Positions 18,262 through 36,866 of a stretch of DNA of 64,000 nucleotides are shown piece after piece. The DNA is taken from positions 1,179,010-1,243,009 of the forward strand of contig CP051235.1 of NCBI GenBank assembly GCA_017794705.1. Direction: 5' to 3'. The stretch comes from Devosia sp. (GTDB lineage: Bacteria; Pseudomonadota; Alphaproteobacteria; Rhizobiales; Devosiaceae). Numbering within the stretch: position 1 is the first letter of the stretch; every line of letters begins with the position of its first letter. The translations under genes and the position numbers were made by a program. The notes under the pieces were generated by a model that was given only the letters and a program-made list of their open reading frames with translations, was not told where the DNA came from and ran no database searches.

Positions 18262-19476
18262 TCACCGCAATCCGAATTCGGGGTGGTCCAGCGCCTTGAT
18301 GATGCCGCGCAGCTCAGCGAGCCCCTTGAGCCGGCCAACAGTGGGATAGCCGGGTTGGGCCGCCCGCTTCAGGTCATCGACAATGTCCTGACCGTGATCG
18401 GGGCGCATGGGGATTTGCGCATCGGCCCGCCCTTCGGCGGCGCGGCGGCGTTCCTCTGCCAGCAAGGCGGCGATGGTTGCGACCATATCGGTACCGCCGT
18501 TCAGATGTTCGTCTTCGAAGAAGGAACCAAACTCGGCATCGCCGTCGCGCGTGACATTGCGCAAATGGACGAAGTGGATCTTCGGGGCAAATTGTCTGGC
18601 AATTGCGGGCAGGTCATTGTCGGCGCGCGCGCCCAGGGAGCCGGAGCACAGGGTCATGCCATTTGCAGGTCTGTCGACAGCGCTCAAAACCTTTTCATAG
18701 TCATCGGCGGTCGACATGACACGCGGCAGGCCCATCAGGGCAAACGGGGGATCGTCCGGGTGACAGCAGAGGCGCAGGCCCAGTTTCTCTGCGGTTGGCA
18801 CCACTTCAGACAGGAAGTCGATCAAGTTGGCACGCAGCTGATCAGCGGAGATGTGATCATATTCGGCGAGGTGCTCGCGCACCTGATCGAGGGTCAGATG
18901 TTCATTGGCACCGGGCAATCCGGCCACGATGTTGGCGATCAGTTCCGCCGCCCGTTCGTCGGAAAGGCTGGCGAACCTCTCAGCGGTCTTTTCCACGATG
19001 TCCTCGGGGTAGTCCTTCGTGGCACCATCACGCTTGAGCAGATGAATGTCGAACAGCGCGAAATCGGCGATGTCGAAGCGCATGGCGGTGCCACCATGCG
19101 GCACCCGCCAGCGCAGGTCGGTGCGGGTCCAGTCGAGCACCGGCATGAAGTTGTAGCAGATGGTCTCAATCCCGGCCTTCGCGAGATTCTCGAGACTCTC
19201 GCGGTAGTTGGCGTAGTGCGTACGGAATTCACCCTGCTGCTTCTTGATGTCCTCCGAAACTACAAGGCTTTCGACCACCGACCAGACCAGGCCGCTCGGC
19301 TGGCCGTCGGGCATCACCTCGATCTCGCGCTGGCGCTTTTCGATCTCGGCAGGAGACCACACATCACCGCTCGCCATATGGTGCAAGGCGCTGACCACGT
19401 CGGTGGCGCCGGCCTGCCTTATGTCGCTGATGCTTGTCAGGTCATGGGGACCGAACCAACGCCAAGACTGTTTCAT
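18262..19476 (-). CDS. uxuA: D-mannonate dehydratase
   Basis: 404 residues. Converts D-mannonate to 2-keto-3-deoxy-D-gluconate in glucuronate catabolism. Opens MKQSWRWFGPHDLTSISDIRQAGATDVVSALHHM as in UxuA; Fe/Mn ligands are visible in LRLCCHPDDPPF, TLCSGSLGARAD, IHFVHLRNV and the C-terminal PDHGQDI. It is the last gene of a leftward run with a TRAP transporter, 34 bases after dctM. The co-location identifies the TRAP cargo as a hexuronate or mannonate. No uxuB (fructuronate reductase) or kdgK is adjacent. Confidence 0.93.
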   Translation of the reverse strand: MKQSWRWFGPHDLTSISDIRQAGATDVVSALHHMASGDVWSPAEIEKRQREIEVMPDGQPSGLVWSVVESLVVSEDIKKQQGEFRTHYANYRESLENLAKAGIETICYNFMPVLDWTRTDLRWRVPHGGTAMRFDIADFALFDIHLLKRDGATKDYPEDIVEKTAERFASLSDERAAELIANIVAGLPGANEHLTLDQVREHLAEYDHISADQLRANLIDFLSEVVPTAEKLGLRLCCHPDDPPFALMGLPRVMSTADDYEKVLSAVDRPANGMTLCSGSLGARADNDLPAIARQFAPKIHFVHLRNVTRDGDAEFGSFFEDEHLNGGTDMVATIAALLAEERRRAAEGRADAQIPMRPDHGQDIVDDLKRAAQPGYPTVGRLKGLAELRGIIKALDHPEFGLR

Positions 19477-19510
19477 TTCTCGTCAACTCCAGGGCCCGGC
19501 AGGGCGGCAA

Positions 19511-20794
19511 TCACGAACCAAAGGCCATGCGCGGCAGGAACAGCACCAGGTCCGGTGCGAACAACAGGACGGCAACCAGCGCGAGGATGGCCACAATGAA
19601 GGGGATGGATTCGCGCACATAGTCCTCAACCTTGCAGTCGAGCAGGCTGCAGACCGTGTACATGGCGACGCCAACAGGCGGGGTCATAGACCCCAATGTG
19701 ACCAGTGTCATCATCAGGATGCCGAAATGCACCGGATCGACGCCAACCTGCTGGATGATCGGCACGAAAATAGGGGTGAGCAGCAGCACCAGCACGGTGC
19801 TTTCGATGAACAGGCCCGCTACGAACAGCATGGTGAGAATGATCGCGACAATGGCCACCGGTACAGTCACTCCGCCGAGCAGCGTGCCGGCGATCTGTTG
19901 CGGCACCTGCAGGAAGATGATGGCGAAGCCGATCATGCCGGACATGACGATGATCAGCATGATCATGCCGATGTCGGAAATGGCGTCACCGATGGCCTTC
20001 TTGACTTTTTCGAGATTGAGTTCGCGATGGGCGAGAAATCCGATCAGGAAGGCATAGACCACCGCGAAGGCGCCCACCTCGGAGGGCGTGAAAAGCCCGC
20101 CCCGGATCGAGACGATCAACAGGATCGGGAACAGCAGTGCCCACTTGGCTTCCCAGGTCGCTTCGAGCACCCGTTTGAGGCTGGGCGGTTCGACATCGGT
20201 CGAGACATAGTTGCGGCGCCGCGCCACCAGCCAGGCCGTCAACATCAGGAAGGCCATCATCAAAATGCCGGGCACAATGCCGGCAAGGAACAGCCGGCCG
20301 ATGGAAACCTGCCCCACATAACCGTAAAGGATCAGCCCGATGGAGGGCGGGATGGTGGCGGTGATCAGCGAACTCAGCGCAATGACGGAAGCCGTATACC
20401 CCTTTGAATAGCCGCGGCTCAGCATTTGCGGTCCAAGGATCCGCGCTTCCATCGCCGCGTCGGCGACGGCGGAGCCGGAAACGCCGCCCATCAGGGTGGA
20501 GAGGATGATTGAGACCTGGGCCAGCCCTCCGGCCATCCACGAGACGGTGACATTTGCGAATTTGAACAAACGATCAGTGATGCCGCTTTCGTTCATCAGG
20601 TGCCCGGCAAAAACGAAGAAGGGCACGGCCAGAAGCGGGAAGCTCTGCGAGACCGAGGCAATCTTCTGCACACCGATGGAGAGCGGCATGATGGGCGAAT
20701 TCAAAAAGAAGACGAAACCGGAAATGCCGATAGCGAACGCGACAGGGGCGCCGACAACGAGCAGAACCAGAAAGACGATGCCAATCGCGGCCAT
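19511..20794 (-). CDS. TRAP transporter, large membrane subunit (DctM type)
   Basis: 427 residues, about twelve membrane spans. Family blocks: PIAVPFFVFAGHLMNESGI-like segment near 55-72, GSAVADAAMEARILGPQM, and SLITATIPPSIGLILYGYVG. It forms the sodium-driven translocation subunit with DctQ and receives substrate from DctP. TAG of dctQ ends 3 bases before its ATG, so translation is coupled. Probable cargo is a hexuronate, given uxuA downstream. Confidence 0.92.
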   Translation of the reverse strand: MAAIGIVFLVLLVVGAPVAFAIGISGFVFFLNSPIMPLSIGVQKIASVSQSFPLLAVPFFVFAGHLMNESGITDRLFKFANVTVSWMAGGLAQVSIILSTLMGGVSGSAVADAAMEARILGPQMLSRGYSKGYTASVIALSSLITATIPPSIGLILYGYVGQVSIGRLFLAGIVPGILMMAFLMLTAWLVARRRNYVSTDVEPPSLKRVLEATWEAKWALLFPILLIVSIRGGLFTPSEVGAFAVVYAFLIGFLAHRELNLEKVKKAIGDAISDIGMIMLIIVMSGMIGFAIIFLQVPQQIAGTLLGGVTVPVAIVAIILTMLFVAGLFIESTVLVLLLTPIFVPIIQQVGVDPVHFGILMMTLVTLGSMTPPVGVAMYTVCSLLDCKVEDYVRESIPFIVAILALVAVLLFAPDLVLFLPRMAFGS

Positions 20795-20797
20795 GAC

Positions 20798-21421
20798 CTA
20801 GAGCGCCCTTTGCTGTTCGGGCGCCGCGTCGGGCCGGGCAAAAATCAGCTTCGTGCCGTCCGGATCGCGCAAGGCTTCAACAACATTGGCGATGATGGTC
20901 AGGCTCAGAAGGATGCAGCCGACCGGCACCGCGATGGTGACGAAACTGTAGGACATGCCGCTGTCGCCAAAGATGCGCTCGGCATTGAGGAGCGTCAGCT
21001 TGTAGCCTTCAATGGCCAGCACCCCCATGAACAGAATGAAGGTGAGCGCCAGCACCAGTTCCAGTGCCAGCCGGAAGCGCCGCGGCAGAAAGCGTACCAG
21101 CAGATCGACGCCAAGGTGCGCCCGCTCCCGCATGGCACGGGTTGCGCCAAAGAAGCACAGCCAGATCAACAAGAGTTGCGCCATGTCGACCGACCAAATC
21201 AGCGGATGACCGAAAAAGCGCATGACTGCAGCGGAGAACACCAGCCCCGTGATGAGGAGCAGCAGCAGCGCTCCGGCGAAATATTCGAGGTTCAGAAAAG
21301 TGATCTCCCGCCCGACCCACAGCGAGCCGAAACGCACGGCGACGGCCAGGGCAGTGACCAGCAGGATCCAGCCGAGGGGGCCGGAGATTTGGCTCATCAA
21401 TTGAGGGAAAAATTCGTTCAT
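20798..21421 (-). CDS. TRAP transporter, small membrane subunit (DctQ type)
   Basis: 207 residues, four hydrophobic spans, with the family motif VMRFFGHPLIWSVDMAQLLLIWLCFFGATRAMRERAHLGVD. Partners the DctM subunit immediately downstream. It lies 78 bases after the binding-protein gene, and that gap holds a strong hairpin. No clear Shine-Dalgarno precedes its ATG, which suggests modest translation relative to dctP. Confidence 0.9.
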   Translation of the reverse strand: MNEFFPQLMSQISGPLGWILLVTALAVAVRFGSLWVGREITFLNLEYFAGALLLLLITGLVFSAAVMRFFGHPLIWSVDMAQLLLIWLCFFGATRAMRERAHLGVDLLVRFLPRRFRLALELVLALTFILFMGVLAIEGYKLTLLNAERIFGDSGMSYSFVTIAVPVGCILLSLTIIANVVEALRDPDGTKLIFARPDAAPEQQRAL

Positions 21422-21441
21422 CGGAGTTTACCGGAACCGGT

Positions 21442-21470
21442 TCTGGGCAGGTCGATGAGACCCGCCCAGA
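21442..21470 (-). other. Intercistronic RNA hairpin between dctP and dctQ
   Basis: Arms TCTGGGC-GGTC and GACC-GCCCAGA (11 Watson-Crick pairs) with a 5-base loop. The single internal non-Watson-Crick position (21449/21463) is A.C if read as plus-strand RNA but a G.U wobble in the minus-strand, coding RNA, giving 12 continuous pairs. No U-run follows. Likely a 3' barrier that stabilises dctP mRNA or lowers read-through into the membrane subunits. Confidence 0.6.
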
Positions 21471-21499
21471 GCTGAGATGTCCAGTTCGTAGAGTGACGG

Positions 21500-22480
21500 T
21501 TACTCGGCGGCCAGCGCGCGCACGGTGTCGCGCAACTCGCCATAGCCAAGGTCGTCGTAGACCACAGAGGTCAGGCTCTTGAACTCGGTGGTATCGATTT
21601 CGGAAACCGTAACGCCGGCGGCGACAAGTTCGGCTTCCAGCGTCTCAAGCGAATCCTGGGTGCCGTATGAGGCGATGTCGCCGGCTTCCAGGGCTTCTTC
21701 GAACAGGATGGCCTGCAGGTCTTCAGGCAGGCTGTCGACCCATTGGGCGCTGGTCACCATGCCGGTGATCAGGTTGATGTGACCGGTCTTGGTGACGTGG
21801 GAAATGACCTCGTCCAGATTGGCGCCGACGATTGCCGGAATCTGGGCCTCGGCGGCGTCGAGCACATTGGTCTGCAGTGCGTTGTAGACATCACCCCAGG
21901 CCATCGGCGTCGGGGTGGCGCCCATCGCGCCGATCGTGCCGACCCAGACAGGAGCGCCGGGAGTGCGCATGCGCACACCGGCCAGGTCTTCGGGGCCGCT
22001 GATCGGCTTATTGGTGAGAAGATGACGTTCGCCCTGCCACCAGTTGAAGCTGAGTACCTGCAGGCCGGATCCTTCGGCAAGCGCATCGGCCCAGCCCCAG
22101 AACATGTCGGAGGTGACGACCTTGCGGATGCCGTCATAACCGGAGGCCAGGAAGGGTGCGCCGAGGATGCCGAATTCGTTCTGGAACACAGCCAGTCGGC
22201 CGCCGTCGACAATGACCGCGACCGGCGCACCGGCGCGGGCCTGTTCAAGCACGTCCTCATCCGGACCCAGTTGAGAATTGGGGAAAAGCTGCACGGTCAG
22301 GCGTCCATCGCTGGCTTCCGCGACATTTGCCTGAAATGCTTCAAGACCCTTGTAAAGCGGGTCAGAGGTGGCCAGCGCGGTGTTCACGCTGAGCGTATAT
22401 TCCTGCGCAAGGCCCGGAACCGCGAGTGCGATCAACAGGGCGCCGGACGCAATGAACTTGGATGCTGAATTGAATTTCAT
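21500..22480 (-). CDS. TRAP transporter, periplasmic substrate-binding protein (DctP type)
   Basis: 326 residues with an N-terminal signal peptide (ASGALLIALAVPGLAQ). DctP fold markers: YKGLEAFQANVAEASDGRLTVQLFPNSQLG, and the carboxylate-binding arginine region LAGVRMRTPGAPVWVGTIGAMGATPTPMAWGDVYNALQTNVLDAAE. Strong ribosome site GGGAGGAAATC before ATG. First gene of the operon dctP-dctQ-dctM-uxuA, divergent from the GntR gene. Cargo inferred as a hexuronate or related acid from uxuA. Confidence 0.92.
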   Translation of the reverse strand: MKFNSASKFIASGALLIALAVPGLAQEYTLSVNTALATSDPLYKGLEAFQANVAEASDGRLTVQLFPNSQLGPDEDVLEQARAGAPVAVIVDGGRLAVFQNEFGILGAPFLASGYDGIRKVVTSDMFWGWADALAEGSGLQVLSFNWWQGERHLLTNKPISGPEDLAGVRMRTPGAPVWVGTIGAMGATPTPMAWGDVYNALQTNVLDAAEAQIPAIVGANLDEVISHVTKTGHINLITGMVTSAQWVDSLPEDLQAILFEEALEAGDIASYGTQDSLETLEAELVAAGVTVSEIDTTEFKSLTSVVYDDLGYGELRDTVRALAAE

Positions 22481-22521
22481 GATTTCCTCCCGTAAACGGT
22501 CCAGGTTCGACCGCTTGTCCC

Positions 22522-22541
22522 TATACTAGAATGGTAGTATA
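22522..22541. promoter_or_regulatory. GntR-type operator in the dctP-gntR intergenic region
   Basis: TATACTAGAATGGTAGTATA: 7-bp arms TATACTA / TAGTATA around 6 bases. It lies between the divergent starts, 12 bases before the regulator ATG and 41 bases before dctP, so bound protein could repress both directions. The AT-rich arms match FadR/UxuR-like GntR sites in form. Confidence 0.75.
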
Positions 22542-22553
22542 AGAAGTGTCAAC

Positions 22554-23267
22554 ATGACAGAGATATTCGCCCTGAACAGGCTTGAGGAGCTGCCCGGTGC
22601 GGCGCGTGTCGCGACCATCGGCAACAGGGTCTATGAGACGCTGAAAACAGCGATCGTTGAGCTGGGCCTGAGGCCCGGAAACCTGCTGTCAGAGGCCGAT
22701 GTCGCCAAGCAACTCGGGGTTTCCCGGCAGCCGGTGCGCGAGGCCTTCATCAAGCTCGCAGAGGTGGGGCTCGTGGAGATCCGGCCGCAGCGCGGCACTT
22801 TCGTACTGCTGATCTCCCGCAAGGAGGTGGTCAATGCCCGCTTCATCCGTGAGGCGGTTGAAGTGGCGCTCGCACGGCGGGCCGCGGAACAGGACATCTC
22901 CCCCGTCGACGTCAAGCGTATCAGGGACAATCTGGCCGCGCAGAAAAAGGCCGCGGCGGAAAACGAACAGACGCTTTTCCTGCATCTGGACGAGCACTTC
23001 CATCACATGCTGGCGCTGAGCGTTGATTGCGAACACGCCTGGCGGTTCCTTGAAAACATCAAGGTGCAGCTCGACCGGGTGCGGTACCTCAGCCTGCCGC
23101 ACACCACACCACTCGACAAGCTTCTGGAACAGCACACGCAAATCGCTGAGGCGATCTTTGCAGGTGATGCGGAAGCCGCAGAAACGGCCATGCGCAATCA
23201 CCTTGCCGAAGTGCTCACCTCAATGCCCGAGATCACCGCCGAGCATCCCGACCTGTTCAGCGAATAG
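22554..23267 (+). CDS. GntR-family transcriptional regulator, FCD (FadR) subfamily
   Basis: 237 residues. Winged helix at about 20-90 (VYETLKTAIVELGLRPGNLLSEADVAKQLGVSRQPVREAFIKLAEVGLVEIRPQRGTFV), then an all-helical FCD effector domain with putative metal/ligand residues in HLDEHFHHMLAL, EQHTQIAEAI and AMRNHL. Divergent from the uronate TRAP operon, with a palindrome between them, so it most likely represses dctPQM-uxuA and itself until a uronate-derived inducer binds. Ends 14 bases from the convergent imelysin stop. Confidence 0.92.
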   Translation: MTEIFALNRLEELPGAARVATIGNRVYETLKTAIVELGLRPGNLLSEADVAKQLGVSRQPVREAFIKLAEVGLVEIRPQRGTFVLLISRKEVVNARFIREAVEVALARRAAEQDISPVDVKRIRDNLAAQKKAAAENEQTLFLHLDEHFHHMLALSVDCEHAWRFLENIKVQLDRVRYLSLPHTTPLDKLLEQHTQIAEAIFAGDAEAAETAMRNHLAEVLTSMPEITAEHPDLFSE

Positions 23268-25344: not shown

Positions 25345-26787
25345 TCAGTGCGCGTGCGCCGGCCGGGCTTTCAGATCGACATCAAGGCGGGCGGCACCTT
25401 TCCACTCGCGGGTCTTGACCGTGGCCTTGGCCAGCCGTTCCTTGGCAGCCGGAATAGCCTCGGCATATTGCGGCAGCCATTCGGCCTGGGCGACGACCAT
25501 CTCGTCGACCATCTGCCAGACTTCGTCCGGCGTGCAAATGGCGCCGACCAGCGGGTCGTGCAGCACTGAAAGTTTGAGCATGTCGAGATCGCCGTTGACC
25601 GCGGCCTCAACGCTCATGCGCTGCACATTGATCGAGGCTGAACACGTGGCAACGCACTGCATGGGCAGGGTGATGCCTTCCACCATGTTGATGCCAAACC
25701 GGTCGACAAAGCCCGGGCTTTCGATGATCGCGTCGGCCGGCAGGTTTGTGATCGCACCCTTGTTGGGCACGTTGAAGTGACCGCGATAGGTGCGCCCGGT
25801 CTCGATCGCCTCAAGGATATGGCTGGCATGTTCGCTTGAGCGCTTGTACTCGCTCAGGGGGCGGTCGGCCCGGGCCAGGAAGCGCGGAAAGTCGGTTTCA
25901 AACCAGTTGCGGTGTTCGGTGGTGTGGCGCAGGTAGCCGCCGGTCTCACCGTGGATCCAGTCCGACATATCGATCCAGTTGGTGATTTCGTCGGGCCGCT
26001 TGCGGTACCAGGGCAGATATTCGGAAAGGTGGCCGTTGCTTTCCGTCGAGTAGTAGCCGAAGCGCTTGAGCACATCGAGGCGCACCTTTTCCTGGGACGC
26101 GAAACGCTCGTGGGCGAGGAACTTTTCAAGCAGTTCGTCAGCCTCGATCTTGCGGCCCTTGACGCGCACGTCGATGTACCAGGTCTGGTGGTTGATACCC
26201 GAGCAGATGTAATCGACCTCATCGTTCTCGACGCCAAAGATCTCCGCGATCTGCTCTGCGCCATGCTGCACACCGTGGCACAGTCCGATGGTTTCCACGC
26301 CGCCATAGGTGTTTGCCGCCCACGTGTTCATGGCCATGGGGTTGGCATAGTTCAAGAAACGCGCGCCGGGCTCGGCGACTTCGCGGATGTCCTTGCAGAA
26401 ATCCAGAATGACGGGAATGTTGCGCTGACCATAAAGAATGCCACCGGCGCAGATCGTGTCGCCGACGCACTGGTCGACGCCATATTTCAACGGAATGTTG
26501 ATGTCGGTGGCGAAGGCTTCCAGCCCGCCGACCCGCACGCAGGACATGATGTATCGCGCACCGGTGATGGCCTCACGGCGATTGGTTGTGGCTTCAACCT
26601 TGGCCGGCAATTTGTTGACCGAAACCACGCGCTCGATGATCTGGCGGATCATGTCGAGGTTGTGCGGATTGATGTCCGTCAGCGCGAATGTGCAGGTCTG
26701 GAACTCTTCAACCTTGAGAATGTCCGAAACGAGCTTTTGGGTGAAACCGATGGAGCCGGCTCCGATGATGGCAATTTTGAACGACAT
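25345..26787 (-). CDS. Glycoside hydrolase family 4 enzyme, CHG-type (galactosidase/glucuronidase-like)
   Basis: 480 residues. NAD- and divalent-metal-dependent glycosidase: NAD site IAIIGAGSIGFTQKL, ANPMAMNTWA, metal Cys170 and His200 in GLCHGVQHG and SGINHQTW. GH4 subfamilies differ in the CHx motif; CHG is characteristic of alpha-glucuronidases, whereas the neighbour at 28368 has CHS. It is the last gene of the galactoside operon and occupies the place of a second alpha-galactosidase in the rhizobial agp/aga layout, so both activities are plausible. Cytoplasmic. Starts 23 bases after the halogenase stop. Confidence 0.85.
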   Translation of the reverse strand: MSFKIAIIGAGSIGFTQKLVSDILKVEEFQTCTFALTDINPHNLDMIRQIIERVVSVNKLPAKVEATTNRREAITGARYIMSCVRVGGLEAFATDINIPLKYGVDQCVGDTICAGGILYGQRNIPVILDFCKDIREVAEPGARFLNYANPMAMNTWAANTYGGVETIGLCHGVQHGAEQIAEIFGVENDEVDYICSGINHQTWYIDVRVKGRKIEADELLEKFLAHERFASQEKVRLDVLKRFGYYSTESNGHLSEYLPWYRKRPDEITNWIDMSDWIHGETGGYLRHTTEHRNWFETDFPRFLARADRPLSEYKRSSEHASHILEAIETGRTYRGHFNVPNKGAITNLPADAIIESPGFVDRFGINMVEGITLPMQCVATCSASINVQRMSVEAAVNGDLDMLKLSVLHDPLVGAICTPDEVWQMVDEMVVAQAEWLPQYAEAIPAAKERLAKATVKTREWKGAARLDVDLKARPAHAH

Positions 26788-26810
26788 GGTCTTGTCCTTG
26801 GGGATTGAAT

Positions 26811-28349
26811 TCAGGCGGCGAGGCCAGCGAGGAACTCCCGGTGGCCCAAAGCTTTGAGTGAGGCAGACTTGTATTCACGGGTCAGGCTGTCGGCGGTCTT
26901 GCGGGCATGGGCGCGCAGTTTGGGCATGGCGTCCATCTCCGCCTTTGCAGTCTGCCGCGACAACAGTCCCAGCCCGTCGAGGACTGGGTAATAGAGCTGC
27001 TCCTCAATATGCGGCAGGTTGCCGGGGAAGGGTTTGAAATCATCATGGCGCGGCAATCGTTCGCGCCACCTGGCGAGCCGCTCGCGGTTCTCGGGCAGGA
27101 TGTATTTTTCGCGCACGTCGCGCCAGAACGCACTGTCGTCGCGCTCCGAGACATAGTGCAGGTTGATGAAGCGCATGAAATCATCGACCTGCCGGGCCAC
27201 TGCCTGGTTGTAGGCGTTGCGGTGCCGGTCCTCTTCGCCCGGTTTGCGGTTCAGGTGGAACATGGCGAACATCAGCAATTGCACGATGGTGCCGTGGATC
27301 GAAGTCGCTTCGAGCGGCTCAAGAAAGCTCGAACTTAGTCCCACCGCGATGCAATTGTTGATCCAGACCCGGTCCAGCCGTCCGGCGTTGATCTTGATAT
27401 CGTTGCGCGGCTCGATCGGTTGACCCAGAGCCTTTTCGATTTCGGCCTGCGCCTCTTCGGGCGTCGTGTGCCGGTCGGAATAGACATAGCCGCAGCCGTA
27501 GCGCGACTGGGTGGGGATCGACCACATCCACCCCGCGGTCTGCGCCCATGCCAATGTGAACGGGGTCAGTTCGGCACCCTCTTCAATGTCCAGCCAGAAC
27601 GGCATGGCGCGATTGACGGGCAGTTGGTCGGCATAGCTGACCCATTCGGCGCCCAGTTCCTTGCCGATGATCTGTTTGCGAAAGCCTGTGCAGTCGAAAA
27701 CGAAATCAACCGGCAAGTCATCGGCATCCTCGAAATGCAGCACCTCGATGTCACCGCTTTCCGCATGGCGCGTCACGCCGCTGACCAGCCCGTCGACATG
27801 GTCCACGCCTTTTGACTTGGACTTGAGGTACTTCGCCACCAGCGACTGGTCGAAATGATAGGCGTGATGGAACGGCCCGAGCGGCACATAGGAGCCGTCC
27901 GGCTTTTTCGCATAAGGCGCTTTCTGCCGGTCGAGCAGATAGGCGAACAGGTGCGGTTCCTGCACAGGTTTGCCTGAGGCGACGCAATATTGATTGAGCC
28001 AGCTTGATCCCTTCGCCTCCGGCGTCTGGCTCACCAGATGCGGGTCGTCGATCGGCCCGTCATAGGTCACACCCAGCCGCCGCCAGTCCTTGTGGCGGAT
28101 GCCGTATTTGATCGTCGCCTCGGTTTCGCTCAGGAATTCCAACTCGTCAAAGCCGAAATGCTGCAGCATCTGTCGAAACACCGCGGTCGAGCCCTCGCCC
28201 ACCCCGATGGTGGGGATTTTCGAACTCTCCACCATGGTGATGCGCAGGGTGCTGCCGGCGCGAGCCGCGCTGTCGGACAAGACGAGCGCCGCCAGCCAGC
28301 CGGCGGTCCCTCCCCCGACAATCGCGATATGTTGTTCCCGCGCGGACAT
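26811..28349 (-). CDS. Flavin-dependent tryptophan-halogenase-family protein
   Basis: 512 residues. FAD site HIAIVGGGTAGWLAALVL (GxGxxG), the halogenase hallmark WxWxIP as GWMWSIP (274-279), the active-site lysine position Lys81 in ATIKYGIRHKDW, and catalytic-glutamate region SFLEPLEATSIHG with Glu347. These residues suggest a working flavin halogenase that needs a flavin reductase from elsewhere. Substrate unknown: the family also includes carbohydrate-locus members that accept indole rather than tryptophan. It sits between two GH4 genes with gaps of 18 and 23 bases, clearly inside the operon, although the known galactoside operons have no such gene. Confidence 0.87.
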   Translation of the reverse strand: MSAREQHIAIVGGGTAGWLAALVLSDSAARAGSTLRITMVESSKIPTIGVGEGSTAVFRQMLQHFGFDELEFLSETEATIKYGIRHKDWRRLGVTYDGPIDDPHLVSQTPEAKGSSWLNQYCVASGKPVQEPHLFAYLLDRQKAPYAKKPDGSYVPLGPFHHAYHFDQSLVAKYLKSKSKGVDHVDGLVSGVTRHAESGDIEVLHFEDADDLPVDFVFDCTGFRKQIIGKELGAEWVSYADQLPVNRAMPFWLDIEEGAELTPFTLAWAQTAGWMWSIPTQSRYGCGYVYSDRHTTPEEAQAEIEKALGQPIEPRNDIKINAGRLDRVWINNCIAVGLSSSFLEPLEATSIHGTIVQLLMFAMFHLNRKPGEEDRHRNAYNQAVARQVDDFMRFINLHYVSERDDSAFWRDVREKYILPENRERLARWRERLPRHDDFKPFPGNLPHIEEQLYYPVLDGLGLLSRQTAKAEMDAMPKLRAHARKTADSLTREYKSASLKALGHREFLAGLAA

Positions 28350-28367
28350 GTGTGTTGCTCTCGACCT

Positions 28368-29738
28368 CTATGCCGCCCGGCGGCGGGCCGGTTTGCGGGC
28401 CCAGGCCGGCAACCAGTCGCCATGCGCGGTGATCAATTCGTCCATCAGGTCCCAGATCTGAGAAAGGTCCAGTTCGGCCCCGGTGTGCGGGTCCATCATG
28501 GCGGCGTGATAGAGGTTCTCGACATTCTCGTTGATCAGCGCCGAAACGGTGAGCTCCTGCACATTGATGTTGGTGCGCATCATGGCTGTCAGCTGCGGCG
28601 GCAGCGTGCCGATCTTGGTCGGCTGGATGCCGTTGCGGTCGACAAGGCACGGCACTTCGACGGCGCAGCCTTCAGGCAGCGAGTCGATCAGGCCGGTGTT
28701 TCGGACGTTGCCGTAGATCACCGAAGGCTCACCGATCCAGGCTGAGTTCATGATCTCGGAAGCATATTCGTGGCTCGCCTCGACCTTGATCTCATTGGCC
28801 GAACGATATTCGGCGGCCTGCCTGTCCCAGCGCTCGACCTGTTCGACGCAGCGCACCGGATATTCATCGAGCGGGATGCCGAACTTCTCGATCAAATCGG
28901 GCCGGTCGCGCTTGATGAACCAGGGGGTATATTCGGCGAAGTGCTCGGAGCTTTCGGTGACGAAATAGCCGAGCCTTGTGAGCATTTCATAGCGCACCTT
29001 GTTCGGGCAGCGCGGGTTCCAGCCGGGTTTCGGGGCTCTTCCCTCGGCATATGATTTTAAGAGGTCCGGATAAAGATCGCGATAGGTGCCATCTTCCATG
29101 ATCTCCTCGAACTTGAGATAGAAGGCCATGTGGTTGATGCCGGCGGCACGGTAACGGATCTTCTCGTAAGGAATGTCGAGATCCTTGGCCAGTTCGCTGG
29201 CGGTACCCTGCACCGAGTGGCAAAGGCCGACCTGCTTGATGTGCGGATATTTTTCCGCGATCGCCCAGGTGTTGATCGCCATCGGGTTCACATATTGCAG
29301 CATGATCGCGTCCGGACAGACCTCGGTCATGTCCTCGCAGATGGACCAGAGATGCGGCACGGTGCGCACGCCGCGCATGATGCCGCCAACGCCCAGCGTA
29401 TCGGCAATCGTGTGGCGCAGGCCGAACTTCTTGGGCACCTCGAAATCGGTGATCGTGCACGGGTCATAGCCGCCGATCTGGAAGCAGACGACAACGAAAT
29501 CCGTACCGTCGAGCGCCGCCCGCTGGTTGTCGAATGTCTCCACTTTCGCCCCAACACCCAGCGTGTTGGCAATCTTGGTGGCGACGATGGCGCTTTCTTC
29601 CAGCCGCTTCGGATTGATGTCCATCAGGCGCACATTGGCCTCGGACAGGTCGGGGCGCTGCAATACGTCGCCGACGATATTTTTCATGAACACGGTCGAG
29701 CCGGCGCCAATGAATGTGATGGTGGGGTGAGCCGCCAT
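28368..29738 (-). CDS. Alpha-galactosidase, glycoside hydrolase family 4 (CHS type)
   Basis: 456 residues, NAD/Mn-dependent cytoplasmic glycosidase of the MelA group: ITFIGAGSTVFMKNIVGDVL, YVNPMAINTWA, metal ligands Cys173 in GLCHSVQG and His203 in GINHMAF. CHSV is the alpha-galactosidase version of the motif, so melibiose/raffinose-type substrates fit. Lies 23 bases after the ABC ATPase gene and 18 bases before the halogenase gene in the same leftward operon. ATG 29738 has CGGAGA upstream. Confidence 0.9.
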   Translation of the reverse strand: MAAHPTITFIGAGSTVFMKNIVGDVLQRPDLSEANVRLMDINPKRLEESAIVATKIANTLGVGAKVETFDNQRAALDGTDFVVVCFQIGGYDPCTITDFEVPKKFGLRHTIADTLGVGGIMRGVRTVPHLWSICEDMTEVCPDAIMLQYVNPMAINTWAIAEKYPHIKQVGLCHSVQGTASELAKDLDIPYEKIRYRAAGINHMAFYLKFEEIMEDGTYRDLYPDLLKSYAEGRAPKPGWNPRCPNKVRYEMLTRLGYFVTESSEHFAEYTPWFIKRDRPDLIEKFGIPLDEYPVRCVEQVERWDRQAAEYRSANEIKVEASHEYASEIMNSAWIGEPSVIYGNVRNTGLIDSLPEGCAVEVPCLVDRNGIQPTKIGTLPPQLTAMMRTNINVQELTVSALINENVENLYHAAMMDPHTGAELDLSQIWDLMDELITAHGDWLPAWARKPARRRAA

Positions 29739-29761: not shown

Positions 29762-31426
29762 TCAGGCTGCGATTTCGAACGCCGCCTTGACCAGTCGTTT
29801 GGTGTAGTCGGTTTGTGGATCGGTCAGCACCTGGTTGACCGGCCCCTGCTCAACGATCTTGCCATATTGCATGACCATGACGCGGTGACACAGGGCCCGC
29901 ACCACTTTCAGATCGTGGGAAATGAACAGGTAGCTGAGCCCCTTTTCGTCCTGCAGCTTGCGCAACAGATCGATGATCTGGGCCTGGACGCTGAGATCGA
30001 GCGCCGAAGTGGGTTCGTCGAGCAGGATGAATTCCGGCTCCAGCGCCACTGCACGCGCGATGGCAATGCGCTGGCGCTGGCCGCCGGAAAACTCATGCGG
30101 GAAGCGCGACAGGATGTTGGTGGGCAGGCCGGCATCCTGCAGAGCCTGTTTCACGCGTTCCAGCCGTTCCTTGCCATTGCCGAGTTGGTTGACGATCAGC
30201 CCTTCCTCGATGATCTGGCGGATCGACATGCGCGGGTTGAGCGAGGCAAACGGGTCCTGGAAGACGATTTGCATGCGCGAACGCAAGGGCCGCATCTGGC
30301 CGCGATCCTTTGTGTGGATCGGCTCGCCGTCAAAAAAGATCTCGCCCTGATTGTTGTGGATCAGCCGGATCAGCGCCTGCCCGAAGGTGGTCTTGCCGGA
30401 GCCGGATTCCCCCACCAGTCCCAGCGTCTCGTATTTCTTCAGATCAAGGCTGAGATTGTCGACCGCATGCAATTCGAAGAAGTCGGGCCGGAAAAAGCCG
30501 CCGCGTTTAAGTGTGAAGGTGACCTTGACGTCTTTGGCCTCAAGGATGGTGCCCGTGTCGGTGGTCAGCGGATTGGCGACGCCTTTGGGTTCGGACGCCA
30601 GCAGATGCTGCGTATAGGCGTGCCTCGGGTTGGAGAATACGGATTCGGTGCGGTTGTGTTCCTTCACCTCGCCGGCCTGCATCACATAAACGTAGTCGGA
30701 GAACTGGCGGACAATGGTCAGGTCGTGGGTGATCAGGATCACGGCCATGCCATAGCGGGCCTGCAAATCCTTGATCAGGTTGAGGATCTGGGCCTGCACC
30801 GTCACGTCGAGCGCCGTGGTGGGCTCGTCGGCAATCAGAATGTCGGGGCGGTTGGCCAGCGCCATGGCGATCATCACGCGCTGGCGCTGTCCGCCTGACA
30901 TCTGGTGCGGATATTGTTTCAGCCGCGCCACGGGTTCGGGAATCTGGACTTCCTCGAGCAGTTCGCGGGCGCGGTCCATTGCCGCGCTGCGGCTCATCTT
31001 GTTGTGCAGATGCAGGATCTCGCAAAGCTGCTGGCCGATCGTATAGACCGGGTTCAGCGATGACATCGGCTCCTGAAAGATCATCGAAATCTGGTTGCCG
31101 CGCAGGCGGCGTTTCTGCACTTCGGTGAACTTCAGCACGTCCTTGCCGTTGAGCTTGATCACCGCGTTCGGGGAGACGGTGGCGCGCTTGGTCAACAGCC
31201 CCATGATGGTGCGGGCCGTCACCGACTTGCCCGAGCCGCTTTCGCCCACGATGGCGACGGTTTCGCCCTTGTGGAGCTGGAAAGAGACATCCTTCACCGC
31301 TTCGACGGTGCCGTGCTCGACCTTGAAATTGACGCCGATATTGCGCGCATCGAGGATCAGTTCGCGGCCGTGTTCGCCAAGGTCGAACCGTTCGGGTGGG
31401 GCTATCATGTTGCTTTGCTCATTCAT
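29762..31426 (-). CDS. ABC transporter ATP-binding protein, fused OppD-OppF type
   Basis: 554 residues with two complete ATPase domains: Walker A GESGSGKSVTA near 60-70 and GESGSGKTTFG near 342-352; two LSGGQ-like signatures ([24 protein letters not shown]) and Walker B motifs (ILIADEPTTALD, FILLDEPTSALD). Opp/Dpp-class importers of rhizobia that carry galactosides use this fused form. It powers the permeases encoded just upstream (13-base gap). Confidence 0.92.
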   Translation of the reverse strand: MNEQSNMIAPPERFDLGEHGRELILDARNIGVNFKVEHGTVEAVKDVSFQLHKGETVAIVGESGSGKSVTARTIMGLLTKRATVSPNAVIKLNGKDVLKFTEVQKRRLRGNQISMIFQEPMSSLNPVYTIGQQLCEILHLHNKMSRSAAMDRARELLEEVQIPEPVARLKQYPHQMSGGQRQRVMIAMALANRPDILIADEPTTALDVTVQAQILNLIKDLQARYGMAVILITHDLTIVRQFSDYVYVMQAGEVKEHNRTESVFSNPRHAYTQHLLASEPKGVANPLTTDTGTILEAKDVKVTFTLKRGGFFRPDFFELHAVDNLSLDLKKYETLGLVGESGSGKTTFGQALIRLIHNNQGEIFFDGEPIHTKDRGQMRPLRSRMQIVFQDPFASLNPRMSIRQIIEEGLIVNQLGNGKERLERVKQALQDAGLPTNILSRFPHEFSGGQRQRIAIARAVALEPEFILLDEPTSALDLSVQAQIIDLLRKLQDEKGLSYLFISHDLKVVRALCHRVMVMQYGKIVEQGPVNQVLTDPQTDYTKRLVKAAFEIAA

Positions 31427-31438
31427 GATCGGCCAGCC

Positions 31439-32617
31439 TCAATAGGGATCGACGGCGTCGCGCAGCCCGTCACCGAGCGCGTTGAACGCAAAGACCGTGA
31501 TCAGCACGAATACCACCGGGGTCAGGATCCAGGGGTAGGAGCCGATCACCGAGAAGGTGGAGGTGTCCTGCAGCATCAGGCCCCAGGAGATGAGCGGCGG
31601 CTTCACGGCAAATCCGAGGAACCCCAGGAAACTCTCGAGCAGCACGATGGTGGGCACGGCCAGCGTGATGGCGACGATCACATGGCTGAGCACGTTCGGC
31701 AGGATATGGCGGGTGATGATCCGCATGTCGGACGAACCGACGGCGATGGCGGCCCTCACATATTCGATCCGCGCCAAGGACAGGGTCTTGGAGCGCACTT
31801 CGCGGCTCAGTTGCGCCCAGCCGATCGCTGCCATCACCCCGATCACGAAAGCGATGAACAGGTTGGACGGGGCCGTTACCGGGATCAGCGAGGTCAGCGC
31901 CAGATAGAGCGGCAGCTGCGGAAAGGCGAGGACGAACTCGACGAATTTTTGCACCCAGCCATCCACCGCGCCGCCGATATAGCCGGAGGTGATGCCGACG
32001 AGCGTGCCGATGGTGGTGGTCAGCGCCACAACGGTCAGCGCGATCAGCAGCGAGATGCGCGAGCCGATGATGCCGCGCGACAGGATATCCCGCCCCAGCT
32101 TGTCGGTGCCGAGGAAGTGGATCGGCCGCCCGTCGGTCGAGCCGAAGAAGTGGATGTTGGCCGGGATGACCCAGAAGAGATAATAGGGAGCCCCCGTCAC
32201 GAAGAAGCCGGTCGGTGTCGGGTTGGACTTGTCGACGCCCGAGATCGGCTGGAACGTCACCGGATCGAATTCGCCCGTGTCGCCGATCGGATAGACGTAA
32301 GGGATGATGCTGAATTCACCTTCCGGGTTCTCGAACGCGATCACGTCGGGCGGTGAAAAGGGAATGTCCGCGAACTTGGGGTCCATGGGCGCGAAAAAGT
32401 CGGCGAACAACATGACAATCATCAGCGTGCTGACCAGCACCAGGCCGATCATGCCCATGACCGACCGGCGGAAGCGCCGCCAGACCAGGGTGGCATAGGT
32501 TTCGTTGTGCCCGGGATGCGCCGATGCGGCCGGTTCGGTGAATGCGGTGTCTGTGTCGGTGACGACATCCACCTCGTGATCCGGATTGGTGTTCTGGATG
32601 GGGCGTGGATCGTTCAT
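31439..32617 (-). CDS. ABC transporter permease, OppC/DppC type
   Basis: 392 residues. Long N-terminal cytoplasmic tail, then a first span (VMGMIGLVLVSTLMIVML), a large periplasmic loop (about 70-165), and five more spans with the EAA loop ARIEYVRAAIAVGSSDMRIITRHILPNVLSHVIV. Ends NALGDGLRDAVDPY, typical of DppC. Its ATG overlaps the preceding oppB-type stop (ATGA), so the two permeases are translationally coupled. Confidence 0.92.
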   Translation of the reverse strand: MNDPRPIQNTNPDHEVDVVTDTDTAFTEPAASAHPGHNETYATLVWRRFRRSVMGMIGLVLVSTLMIVMLFADFFAPMDPKFADIPFSPPDVIAFENPEGEFSIIPYVYPIGDTGEFDPVTFQPISGVDKSNPTPTGFFVTGAPYYLFWVIPANIHFFGSTDGRPIHFLGTDKLGRDILSRGIIGSRISLLIALTVVALTTTIGTLVGITSGYIGGAVDGWVQKFVEFVLAFPQLPLYLALTSLIPVTAPSNLFIAFVIGVMAAIGWAQLSREVRSKTLSLARIEYVRAAIAVGSSDMRIITRHILPNVLSHVIVAITLAVPTIVLLESFLGFLGFAVKPPLISWGLMLQDTSTFSVIGSYPWILTPVVFVLITVFAFNALGDGLRDAVDPY

Positions 32618-33627
32618 GCCGATTTCTCCCCACCCAGCCGGATACGCGGGTCGAGTACGGCCAGCAAAATGTCGGCGATGATGTTGCCGACGATCAGCGT
32701 CGCGGCCAGCACCAGCATGAACGTCGCGGTGACGAACACATCGCCAACCCCCATCGAGCCCACAATCGCCGGGCCGACAGTGGCGAGGCCGAAGACAATC
32801 GCGACCTCGATCTCGCCGGTCAGCATGTAGGGCAGCACGACGCCCTGATAGGCGACCAGCGGATGCAGCGCATTGGGCACCGCGTGCCGCATGATGACGG
32901 CGCCTTCCGGCAGTCCTTTGGCGCGCGCCGTTTCCACATATTGCGCATTCAGCACGTCAAGCAGATTGGCCCGCATCACGCGCATATTGTAGGCGAGCCC
33001 GCCGAATGTGGCGATGAAGACCACCGGCCATATGTGCTGCACGAGGTTGACGAATTTCCCCCAGCTCCATTCGGCGCCGCCGTAGCGGGCGGAGAAGAAC
33101 ATGCCGATTTCACTGACGTTCAGCTGAAATACGAGCAGGTAAAGAATGATGATCGCCATCAAAAATCGCGGGATCGTCATGCCGAGAAACGAGATGATGC
33201 CGAGGGTCGTATCGATCCAGCTATATTGTCGGGTCGCCGCTATGATCCCCAGCGATATTCCGAACAGTGACGCAAGGAAGTGGCACGTCAGCGCCAGCAT
33301 GATGGTGGCGGGCAGCCGCTCGGCCACGACATTGCCGACGGGCTTGTTGTAATAGAGCGAGTGGCCGAAATCGAAGCGGGTGACGATACCGGTGATCCAG
33401 TTGACGTACTGGATCGGCAGCGGATCGTTGAGCCCATTGGCTTCGCGATAGGCCTCGGCCTGCTGGTCGGCCTGTTCCTGGGTGGCGCCGCCCTGATTGA
33501 TCAGCATGGAACGGATGTAGTCGCCATAGTCGCCCGGGGGCGCCTGGATGATCGCAAAGGTCACGACGCTGAGCAGGAACAGCAGCGGGATCGCGCCTAA
33601 TATGCGAACTGTGAGAAAGCGGAACAT
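32614..33627 (-). CDS. ABC transporter permease, OppB/DppB type
   Basis: 337 residues, six spans: MFRFLTVRILGAIPLLFLLSVVTFAIIQAPPGDY at the N-terminus and the EAA loop YVETARAKGLPEGAVIMRHAVPNALHPLVAY. It forms the channel with the OppC-type partner. Separated from the binding-protein gene by 64 bases containing a very stable hairpin; GAGAGG lies about 10 bases before its ATG. Confidence 0.92.
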   Translation of the reverse strand: MFRFLTVRILGAIPLLFLLSVVTFAIIQAPPGDYGDYIRSMLINQGGATQEQADQQAEAYREANGLNDPLPIQYVNWITGIVTRFDFGHSLYYNKPVGNVVAERLPATIMLALTCHFLASLFGISLGIIAATRQYSWIDTTLGIISFLGMTIPRFLMAIIILYLLVFQLNVSEIGMFFSARYGGAEWSWGKFVNLVQHIWPVVFIATFGGLAYNMRVMRANLLDVLNAQYVETARAKGLPEGAVIMRHAVPNALHPLVAYQGVVLPYMLTGEIEVAIVFGLATVGPAIVGSMGVGDVFVTATFMLVLAATLIVGNIIADILLAVLDPRIRLGGEKSA

Positions 33628-33691: not shown

Positions 33692-35776
33692 CTAGGAGGC
33701 GGGGCCGTCGGAACCGGGCGCGCCGGGCAGCGTCTCAGGGTGCAACTCATAGTCACCCTGATCTGCTTCAGGCACGTACACACGTTCACGGATGATATTA
33801 TCCTCCGCCCAGTTGAACATGAAGATTGGTGCCCCTGCCGGGATGTTGGCAAAGCGCTTGTTGATGATCAGCGCACCAGGATACTGGGTCAGACCAACCG
33901 AGTAGACGTTCTCGGTAAAGATCTGCTGGTACTGTTTCATCAGGTCGGCACGTTCAGCATTGTCGCCGGTCGAGACGAACGCATTCACGATGTCGACCAG
34001 TTCCTGCTCGAACGGCAGCAAGTCCAGCGTGCCGTCAGAGCCGGCGCGGTGGAACTGATGGTTGCGCGGACCCACCGGGGCGAGACCCACGGTGCCCTGC
34101 ACCACCGACACATACTCGGCACCCTGACGAACGACCGCCCAGTCAAACTGACCGGATTGGGCCATGTCGTCGCGGGCCGTGCCCTGCTGGAAGTTGGCGA
34201 TGGCACGAATGCCCACCGATTCCATCATGGCAATCACGCCTTCGGCGAGATTGGTGTCGGTTGCATAGTCGGTGTTGGCCAGAACGGTGATTTCAACGTC
34301 CTGTCCACCGGCCGTGCCTTCGGGGAAGTTGCGCACACCGTTGCCGTCGGTATCGGTCAGACCGAGCCCGTCGAGCATGGCATTGGCGGCCCCGAGACTG
34401 TGCGGATAGTAGACGGTGGAGTCGGCATCATAGAAGCCGGTCCCCGCATACAGGCCGCCCGGATAGATGGCTGTGAACGGGCCGCGCACCAGGGATTCAC
34501 CCAGCCGCTGCCGGTCGATGGCAATCGTGATGGCCTTGCGGAAGTCCAGATCGCGGTTCAGCTCGCGAACGGCCTGGGCACGGGCATCGGGTTCACCCCA
34601 GCCATTGCCGGACATGTTCATCTGCAAGGCATAGCCAATGGTCCGGGCGCCGAACTGCAGACGGGCCGGCGCATCATCATCAGCCGAGCGGCGCAGGGCT
34701 TCGACATAGCTTTCAGCCTGTTCGAGGTTCGAGAAGTCGCCCGAGCCTGCCACGGCCTGCACGTCACGGTCAGCCCATGTCGAGAGACGATAGTGCATTT
34801 CGTTCAGGTAGGGCAGTTGATTGCCGTTCTCGTCAACCTTCCAGTAGAAAGGATTGCGGCGCAGGACGATGATGTCGTCCGCACGATACTCGACGGGCAC
34901 CCATGCACCCATTACCGGGATATTCAGATATTCTGGTGGGAAGGCATTCTTGTACTCGTCGTAGGTATTGTCCGAGTAGTTCGGATGCTCGGGCTTGAGG
35001 ATATGGCTCGGTCCCGGGCAGAATGTGCCGTAGGCCATCTGGTACAGGTACTGGGTGGGCCGCTCTTCCTCGAAGGTCCACTTGATTGTGTAGGCGTCGA
35101 TGGCTTCAAGCGTCGTGCCGTTGCCGAAGCTTTCCGGCGTGGCGCCGTTCAGCGGCGAGACATTGGGATCCAGAACATTGTCTTCCCAGTAGAACATCAC
35201 GTCTTCGGAATCGAACGGATCGCCGTCAGACCACTTTGCTCCCTCGATCAGATGCATGGTCAGTTCATGGCCGTCTTCGGACCATTCCCAGCTCATGGCG
35301 AGGTTGGGCATGGGCTCGAGTTCTTCGGCCGTGATGGTGAACAGCGGACCGGTGCGGGTCAGACATTCGGACATGCCGATGTCGATACCGCCCCAACCCT
35401 GGGACTGGCCGCCGATATAGTTCCAGCCTTCGGGACGACCACCGATGACGTGACGCATCACGTCGCCGTAAACGCCTGCACCATCAGGCATGTTGGCGAT
35501 CTTGTAGACCAGCGGTTCGGCCGGCAAACGTTCGGCAACGGGCGGCAGTGCACCTGTGTCGACGAAGTTTGCGGTTACCCAGTCGGGCTCATGATATTCG
35601 TCGAGCGCGCGATATTCCTGAATGTCGCTGATGCTGACGAAGATCGGAGATTGCTGGGCTTCAAAGGTTGGCGGGGGCGGCGGCGTGGTGGGTTCCACCA
35701 TTTGCGCCTGGGTCGCCAGGGACGTGGCGCCAAGCAGTATTGCGGCGCCTCCTATTGCTTTCAGATGTGCTCTCAT
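33692..35776 (-). CDS. ABC transporter substrate-binding protein, family 5 (Opp/Dpp type; AgpA-like)
   Basis: 694 residues from ATG 35776, selected because GGGAGGAAAT stands just before it and a signal peptide follows (IGGAAILLGATSLATQAQ). SBP_bac_5 features: TTPPPPPTFEAQQSP, YPGGLYAGTGFYDADSTVYYP, and ALIINKRFANIPAGAPIFMFNWAE. It is longer than peptide-binding OppA, as are rhizobial alpha-galactoside-binding AgpA proteins. First gene of the operon, divergent from an AraC activator; two GH4 glycosidases downstream make oligosaccharides such as melibiose or raffinose the probable cargo rather than peptides. Confidence 0.88.
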   Translation of the reverse strand: MRAHLKAIGGAAILLGATSLATQAQMVEPTTPPPPPTFEAQQSPIFVSISDIQEYRALDEYHEPDWVTANFVDTGALPPVAERLPAEPLVYKIANMPDGAGVYGDVMRHVIGGRPEGWNYIGGQSQGWGGIDIGMSECLTRTGPLFTITAEELEPMPNLAMSWEWSEDGHELTMHLIEGAKWSDGDPFDSEDVMFYWEDNVLDPNVSPLNGATPESFGNGTTLEAIDAYTIKWTFEEERPTQYLYQMAYGTFCPGPSHILKPEHPNYSDNTYDEYKNAFPPEYLNIPVMGAWVPVEYRADDIIVLRRNPFYWKVDENGNQLPYLNEMHYRLSTWADRDVQAVAGSGDFSNLEQAESYVEALRRSADDDAPARLQFGARTIGYALQMNMSGNGWGEPDARAQAVRELNRDLDFRKAITIAIDRQRLGESLVRGPFTAIYPGGLYAGTGFYDADSTVYYPHSLGAANAMLDGLGLTDTDGNGVRNFPEGTAGGQDVEITVLANTDYATDTNLAEGVIAMMESVGIRAIANFQQGTARDDMAQSGQFDWAVVRQGAEYVSVVQGTVGLAPVGPRNHQFHRAGSDGTLDLLPFEQELVDIVNAFVSTGDNAERADLMKQYQQIFTENVYSVGLTQYPGALIINKRFANIPAGAPIFMFNWAEDNIIRERVYVPEADQGDYELHPETLPGAPGSDGPAS

Positions 35777-35881
35777 ATTTCCTCCCAATCGAACACGCGT
35801 TGAGATCGACGCCTCCCCCGAAACTCCTCCGTTTCGACAGATCGCCAGCGTGTCCCGCTCATGCTAGAACCGCTCGAATTT

Positions 35882-35957: not shown

Positions 35958-36866
35958 TTGGCGAAAAAGCCTGGAAAACTAACGGTTTCCAAGCCCATCG
36001 GGCGGCCGGACCGGACCTTTTATGCCAAGTCGCAGGCCTTTGGCCGCTTCGGCATGCGCTGGTTCCGCCCGGTGCTGATGGACAGTCCGCACAGCCATGG
36101 TCATGTCGAACTCAACTGGCTGAGCGCCGGCAGCATGGACTATGAATTCGACGGCAGGGCCCTGACCGTCACCGCCGGCCGGGTTGCCATATTCTGGGCC
36201 GGCATTCCGCACCAGACCACCGGCATCGACTATGGGCCCGACGACGACGCGCAGCAATGCAATATCTATCTGCCGCTCGATGCCTTTCTGCACCTTCCGC
36301 ATATCGACAGGATGCATGAAGTGATGATGGGTGGCGGCGTCATCTGCTTGCAACCTGACGCGGTCGGGCGCGGCACGCTCAACCGCTGGTACGGCGATTA
36401 TCGCACAGGCGATCCGGAGCGGCAGGACATTCTCAAGCTGGAAATTGGTGCCATGCTGCGCCGGGCCGTTCTGATTGGCTGGGACGAAATGCTGCCGGCC
36501 TGGATCGAGCCAACCAATGCCGTGCCGCGCCAAGCGCCGCCGGTGCGGTACGTCGTGGCAATGGTTCGGCACATCCTGGAGAATCTTTCCGAACCGCTGA
36601 AGGTCGACGATGTCGCAAAAGTGGCCGGGCTGCACCCCAACTATGCGCTCAGCCTGTTCACCAGCGTCATGCGGGTGCCGATCCAGAAATTCATCGTGCG
36701 CATGCGGCTGGTGCGGGCCCGGGACCTGTTGTTCGAAAGCAACCTGTCGATCGCCAACGTGGCCTTTCACTCCGGCTTCAATTCACTCAGCCAGTTCTAC
36801 GCGCAGTTCCGCCGCGCCTATGGGGTGACGCCGCTTGAACTGCGCCGCCATCTCATCCGCGAGTAG
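35958..36866 (+). CDS. AraC-family transcriptional regulator of the galactoside operon
   Basis: 302 residues; start is TTG at 35958 behind GGGGGAAAA because no suitable ATG exists. N-terminal cupin sugar-sensing half (SHGHVELNWLSAGSMDYEFDG, AIFWAGIPHQTTG), C-terminal pair of helix-turn-helices (VDDVAKVAGLHPNYALSLFTSVMRVPIQKFIVRMRLVRARDLLFES, IANVAFHSGFNSLSQFYAQFRRAYGVTPLELR). Divergent from the ABC/GH4 operon, matching the AraC-type activator of alpha-galactoside genes in Sinorhizobium. Its end overlaps the convergent DUF1365 gene by 14 bases. Confidence 0.9.
   Translation: MAKKPGKLTVSKPIGRPDRTFYAKSQAFGRFGMRWFRPVLMDSPHSHGHVELNWLSAGSMDYEFDGRALTVTAGRVAIFWAGIPHQTTGIDYGPDDDAQQCNIYLPLDAFLHLPHIDRMHEVMMGGGVICLQPDAVGRGTLNRWYGDYRTGDPERQDILKLEIGAMLRRAVLIGWDEMLPAWIEPTNAVPRQAPPVRYVVAMVRHILENLSEPLKVDDVAKVAGLHPNYALSLFTSVMRVPIQKFIVRMRLVRARDLLFESNLSIANVAFHSGFNSLSQFYAQFRRAYGVTPLELRRHLIRE

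Follow-up and report, generated by a model that had tools for sequence, protein, structure and literature searches.

Known systems and organization of the locus

Flavin-dependent halogenase chemistry normally requires an electron-rich aromatic ring, and the LodB, GoxB and QhpG maturases and MibH act on proteins or peptides. In RebH, which belongs with PyrH, SttH, Tar14 and PrnA to the variant-A tryptophan halogenases, the tryptophan-binding lid comprises Tyr454, Tyr455, Glu461, Phe465 and Trp466, according to an excerpt of PMC5945002. BrvH, the natural substrate of which is given there as not known, and the halogenases of TonB-linked carbohydrate loci have intact catalytic residues and a shortened lid (same excerpt, PMC5945002). 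The closest known operon type is the AgpABCD-AgaL operon of Rhizobium, with which the Agrobacterium mel operon is grouped; the ligands named for importers of this type in an excerpt of PMC6683767 are melibiose, galactinol, raffinose and stachyose.

The window (the whole stretch of 64 000 nucleotides that was analysed) contains an operon of this type, in which a halogenase gene lies between two glycoside hydrolase family 4 (GH4) genes:

25345..26787, minus strand: GH4 α-galactosidase 'b' (GH4b), AgaL1 type, 75% identical to R. etli agaL1
26811..28349, minus strand: Agp-linked flavin-dependent halogenase (FDH), PF04820, 512 aa (ORF list, Pfam)
28368..29738, minus strand: GH4 α-galactosidase 'a' (GH4a), AgaL2 type, 78% identical to R. 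etli agaL2
29762..31426, minus strand: fused ABC ATPase of the Opp/Agp importer (ORF list, Pfam, NCBIfam)
31439..32617, minus strand: ABC permease, OppC type (ORF list, Pfam)
32614..33627, minus strand: ABC permease, OppB type (ORF list, Pfam)
33692..35788, minus strand: α-galactoside periplasmic binding protein, AgpA/MelB type, 66% identical to R. etli AgpA
35958..36866, plus strand: divergent AraC-family regulator (Pfam, NCBIfam)

The initial annotation had described a complete halogenase-family protein wedged between two GH4 genes downstream of an Opp-type galactoside importer, and the coordinates bear this out. The FDH reading frame begins with ATG, has no internal stops and is complete at 512 residues; it is separated from GH4a by 18 nt (28350-28367) and from GH4b by 23 nt (26788-26810), and the importer genes, encoding a family 5 binding protein (SBP5), two permeases and the fused ATPase, lie upstream on the same strand. 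Both GH4 neighbours carry PF02056 and PF11975 and score 585 and 672 bits against an NCBIfam α-galactosidase cut-off of 486 bits. The binding protein, which may start at 35776 instead of at the TTG at 35788, matches the solved α-galactoside-binding protein 6epy with 1050 bits, and the top NCBIfam match of the AraC regulator is MelR, at 165 bits under a cut-off of 253. An AgpA-type binding protein, two permeases, an ATPase, GH4 α-galactosidases and an AraC regulator are thus all present and, given the 6epy match and the identities to R. etli AgpA and AgaL, the locus is an Agp α-galactoside operon plus one further gene. In R. etli the importer genes stand in the same order and an AraC-type regulator is present, but the operon lacks a halogenase and its agaL1 lies upstream of agpA.

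No indole or tryptophan gene was recognized among the 20 window ORFs scanned with Pfam, in agreement with the initial annotation. No flavin-reductase domain was found among the operon ORFs scanned; one PF01613 flavin reductase is encoded elsewhere in the same genome, and the ORFs of the long FDH loci contain no match to it. Promoter and terminator scans gave signals no more frequent than in shuffles and a tRNA search gave none. The genome has a further GH4 gene (G000:C1:1785022-1786353), 74% identical to GH4a, but only one FDH. Adjoining the α-galactoside operon at 18262-23267 are a TRAP transporter (DctM and neighbours), the mannonate dehydratase UxuA and a GntR regulator, likely a hexuronate-uptake locus.

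Catalytic residues, fold and phylogeny

FDH matches the Pfam family Trp_halogenase (PF04820) over residues 8-467 with an E value of 1.7e-102 and a score of 344 bits against a gathering score of 21; its only PHROGs label is 'tryptophan halogenase'. The motifs expected of a halogenase are all present, namely a GxGxxG FAD motif (GGGTAGW, 12-18), the catalytic lysine (Lys81), W274-x-W276-x-I278-P and the catalytic glutamate (Glu347-A-T-S), together with GPIDD at 98-102. Thirty-five members of the FDH clade were aligned with a PrnA reference from a locus (L096) which, from its ORFs, we take to be the Burkholderia prn cluster. PrnA Lys79 and Glu346 align with Lys81 and Glu347 and, with no more than one exception among the sequences, WxWxIP and Thr348 fall on identical residues. 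Lys81, Glu347, Thr349 and both tryptophans of WxWxI are found in 35/35 members; in a 34-sequence alignment Lys81, Trp274, Trp276, Ile278 and Glu347 are invariant, and Pro279 is kept in 34/35. The lysine, WxWxIP and glutamate singled out in the initial annotation therefore stand where it placed them and are invariant or nearly so throughout the clade.

An AlphaFold2 model of FDH (pLDDT 92.4, pTM 0.90) has the FDH fold, its best match being PyrH (TM 0.88; Z = 44.2, 2.1 Å over 483 residues). The variant-A tryptophan halogenases share the whole fold (Z = 40-44), the FAD motif, the catalytic Lys/Glu pair and WxWxIP with FDH at about 30% sequence identity; unlike them, FDH has no biosynthetic cluster visible around its gene. 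MibH is also a fold match (Z = 38.5). The N-terminus, as read from the sequence, has no signal-peptide-like start, so that FDH should act in the cytoplasm.

FDH is under purifying selection. In the locus comparison, in which the GH4a and GH4b matches coincide at loci with a single GH4 gene, dN/dS was 0.04-0.11 in seven of ten close FDH pairs; the other three gave 0.30 (L072/L073), 0.25 at a dS of about 0.9 (window/L091) and an uninformative value (L062/L064, dS 0.003). The intact reading frame and the low ratios in the seven pairs rule out a pseudogene. A quick maximum-likelihood tree separates the 35 clade members from the other sequences by a branch with 100% SH-aLRT support, and the stem of the clade is long (1.79 changes per column).

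Substrate pocket

PrnA His101 and Phe103, which we take to contact the indole as the aromatic clamp of tryptophan halogenases, are replaced in the clade by Gly98 (35/35) and Ile100 (34/35), followed by Asp101 (35/35) and Asp102 (34/35). At the same two sites, 30 other alphaproteobacterial PF04820 proteins have His (26) or Asn (4) and Phe (30/30), a sample that leans towards model-like proteins because each genome contributes its single best-scoring place (the 30 loci returned out of all PF04820 matches). The lid is also shortened. With the numbering of RebH and PrnA presumably offset by 11, the equivalents of PrnA Tyr443, Tyr444 and Glu450 are not conserved and those of Phe454 and Trp455 are deleted in 35/35, so that the clade has neither the His/Phe clamp nor the tryptophan-binding lid of a tryptophan halogenase. 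Several residues are specific to the clade and invariant or nearly so: His86 (Phe in 30/30 of the other PF04820 proteins), Asp292 (Ser in 29/30), Trp236, Trp252, His133 and His447. This remodelling, seen in a ligand-free comparison of sequences, argues against tryptophan or indole as the substrate, and the 'tryptophan halogenase' annotations in the clade are probably wrong in this respect.

The initial annotation had proposed that the importer takes up a galactoside of an aromatic aglycone, which the GH4 enzymes release and FDH halogenates. The intact catalytic residues, the tight operon shared with both GH4 genes and the usual need of this chemistry for an aromatic ring speak for such a route. 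Yet none of the ligands named for this importer type is aromatic (excerpt of PMC6683767), the clamp is gone in 34-35 of the 35 members and no recurring aromatic-metabolism or aromatic-handling gene was found beside FDH in the neighbourhoods and gene clusters labelled by inspection, rare clusters being left unannotated. We therefore regard an aromatic aglycone as unlikely: possible, but unsupported.

GH4 chemistry is redox-based, and FDH might accordingly not halogenate at all, acting instead as a flavin oxidase or monooxygenase on sugar-derived metabolites or merely turning over FADH2/NADH from the NAD-dependent GH4 enzymes. Such a role would suit the strongly altered pocket, the polar character of its invariant residues and the long stem branch; against it, relaxed halogenases would be expected to drop at least one of the Lys, Glu, Thr and WxWxI residues that are retained in 35/35, and this makes it doubtful.

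As a further alternative, the target of halogenation or oxidation by FDH could be an amino-acid residue in a partner protein such as AgpA or one of the GH4 enzymes. The fold match to MibH would fit this, and the shortened lid suggests an open pocket as in BrvH and MibH (excerpt of PMC5945002). The NCBIfam models for GoxB, QhpG and LodB recognize FDH weakly, at 29-33 bits, but these scores are far under the cut-offs of 240-400 bits and do not place it among the maturases. In addition, the Rhizobium operon combines the same GH4 and AgpA types but has no FDH, so that maturation is not generally required, and we consider modification of a protein highly doubtful.

BrvH itself was compared with FDH by fold and sequence score only. 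The initial annotation had also drawn attention to related halogenases of carbohydrate loci beside TonB receptors. Two such loci were viewed and indeed carry a TonB receptor with a β-glucosidase or GH68 gene alongside, but their halogenases keep the clamp His and Phe and fall outside the FDH clade; the closest relatives of FDH belong to the Agp system, with an ABC importer and GH4 enzymes in place of a TonB receptor.

Distribution and co-occurrence with AgpA

A scan of named genomes gave 51 loci with FDH relatives (51-64% identity in the best segment) in Devosia, Pelagibacterium, many Rhodobacterales, a Robiginitomaculum MAG, two Trueperaceae MAGs and an Oceanospirillaceae MAG. GH4 is present in 43/51 loci, within 250 nt of FDH in 35/51, and an AgpA-type gene in 37/51, several contigs being short; AgpA lies elsewhere in the genome for seven of eight named loci without a linked gene, and was found in 13/15 genomes checked for it outside the FDH locus. 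The GH4-halogenase-GH4 order, which the initial annotation had suggested surveying, is uninterrupted (GH4a-FDH-GH4b, read by eye) in 11/51. Successive genes of this trio overlap by 4 nt on a Sulfitobacter plasmid, and a 1.6-Mb genome with an FDH only 46% identical retains the order GH4b-AgpA-permeases-ATPase-FDH. Several Rhodobacterales loci have, as the gene following FDH, one of the De Ley-Doudoroff galactose route or one for a GH42 β-galactosidase in place of GH4b (named by eye from the sequence), a further pointer to galactose-containing substrates. In a class-wide scan of 385 genomes only three passed 1e-90: the window's own, G296 (agp-linked) and G221, the FDH of which is 38% identical and has no agp gene in its 19 kb.

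Among 136 genomes of the window's family, apparently Devosiaceae, the FDH clade is found in 63 (two of 65 FDH genomes, G082 with a stop-containing fragment and G085 at 34% identity, being left out) and AgpA in 87. Both are present in 62, FDH only in 1, AgpA only in 25 and neither in 48 (Fisher p = 5e-17, ignoring phylogeny). The sole FDH-only genome (G106) has GH4b-FDH-GH4a-ATPase reaching the contig end. The same test within one genus (g5, 75 genomes) gave 43 with both, 0 with FDH only, 21 with AgpA only and 11 with neither (p = 2.6e-5), and in 248 genomes sampled from the family of Flavimaricola marinus (Rhodobacterales) the corresponding counts were 10, 0, 1 and 237 (p = 5e-17). These p values overstate independence because the genomes are related, and part of the co-occurrence is shared ancestry; the agreement between two orders is the stronger point. 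The recurrence in the window's family and in Rhodobacterales rejects a recent insertion in one strain, which the initial annotation had named among the grounds for refutation, and the association is a conserved feature, more regular than the view from a single window had shown.

Physical linkage is common but not universal. Of 64 FDH places in the window's family, 44 are less than 20 kb from AgpA, seven are 330-450 kb away on the same contig and 13 are on other contigs, so that operon membership is not always required. In the Flavimaricola marinus family, ten of 11 FDH places have GH4 or the ATPase in the short flank; 19.5 kb of sequence at the eleventh (L138) contain no agp gene, AgpA being on another contig. 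F. marinus itself (G529; L102 and L107) has two AgpA and two FDH, and a GH4a lies next to either FDH. Across loci, the distances of FDH correlate with the distances of GH4a, the binding protein and the ATPase (r = 0.70, 0.71 and 0.78 over 35, 40 and 36 loci; 0 of 2000 permutations).

Proposed role

Both the enzyme family and the kind of operon are known, and FDH is a variant within them. We propose, with a probability of about one half, that the clade is a distinct, old FDH subfamily serving as a dedicated accessory of AgpABCD-AgaL uptake and acting on a polar, non-tryptophan substrate tied to α-galactosides. An α-galactoside would enter via AgpABCD and be split by the two NAD-dependent GH4 enzymes, with FADH2 supplied by a general flavin reductase encoded elsewhere. 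The flavin hydroperoxide and halide would give hypohalous acid, which Lys81 and Glu347 may direct onto a substrate held in the reshaped pocket, with the invariant or nearly invariant Asp101, Asp102, His86, His447 and Trp252; the intact catalytic residues argue for these steps. That FDH is so strictly tied to AgpA is an argument for a substrate that comes with α-galactoside metabolism. This substrate would be polar rather than free tryptophan and would accompany or derive from the imported galactoside, candidates being the glycoside, its non-sugar part or a GH4-derived product, and the pathway would yield a modified metabolite rather than supply carbon.

A bolder form of this proposal, which we consider quite unlikely, is a class of the halogenase fold that acts on a carbohydrate-linked molecule, such as an enolizable GH4 keto-sugar or the intact galactoside, instead of an indole or phenol, with Lys/Glu-directed hypohalite in a sugar-type pocket. 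If true, it would give a halogenase a physiological role in sugar uptake. In the open-licence PMC literature, subscription papers being outside the scope of the search, no paper was found on a halogenase in an α-galactoside operon. The present loci place 'tryptophan halogenase' genes inside sugar-uptake loci and tie one FDH subfamily to one defined sugar system, a known importer type with its hydrolases, which narrows the search for the substrate to α-galactoside metabolism. Culturable strains with FDH exist in Devosia, Pelagibacterium, Sulfitobacter and Flavimaricola.

Loci without FDH and displaced copies

We call FDH an accessory because the R. etli operon and the 25 AgpA-only genomes of the window's family do without it. 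Four Devosiaceae operons that were viewed (L141-L144) likewise have no FDH, and such operons indicate that the enzyme is unnecessary for α-galactoside breakdown. The identities of AgpA to the window's AgpA overlap between genomes with and without FDH, some of the latter reaching 81-83%, so that genomes with FDH do not have an importer type of their own. The GH4b of one FDH-less operon (L141:13496-14904) was matched as two adjoining pieces, possibly because of a frameshift.

In two Devosia genomes (L045:11295-13436 and L049:11533-13412), a relocated FDH has no agp gene nearby; a phosphotransferase-like gene and another conserved gene come after it (named by eye). In a 2.0-Mb genome without AgpA, the locus L093 (G082:C1:36000-52000) holds an FDH remnant with stop codons, which suggests decay of FDH following loss of the operon.
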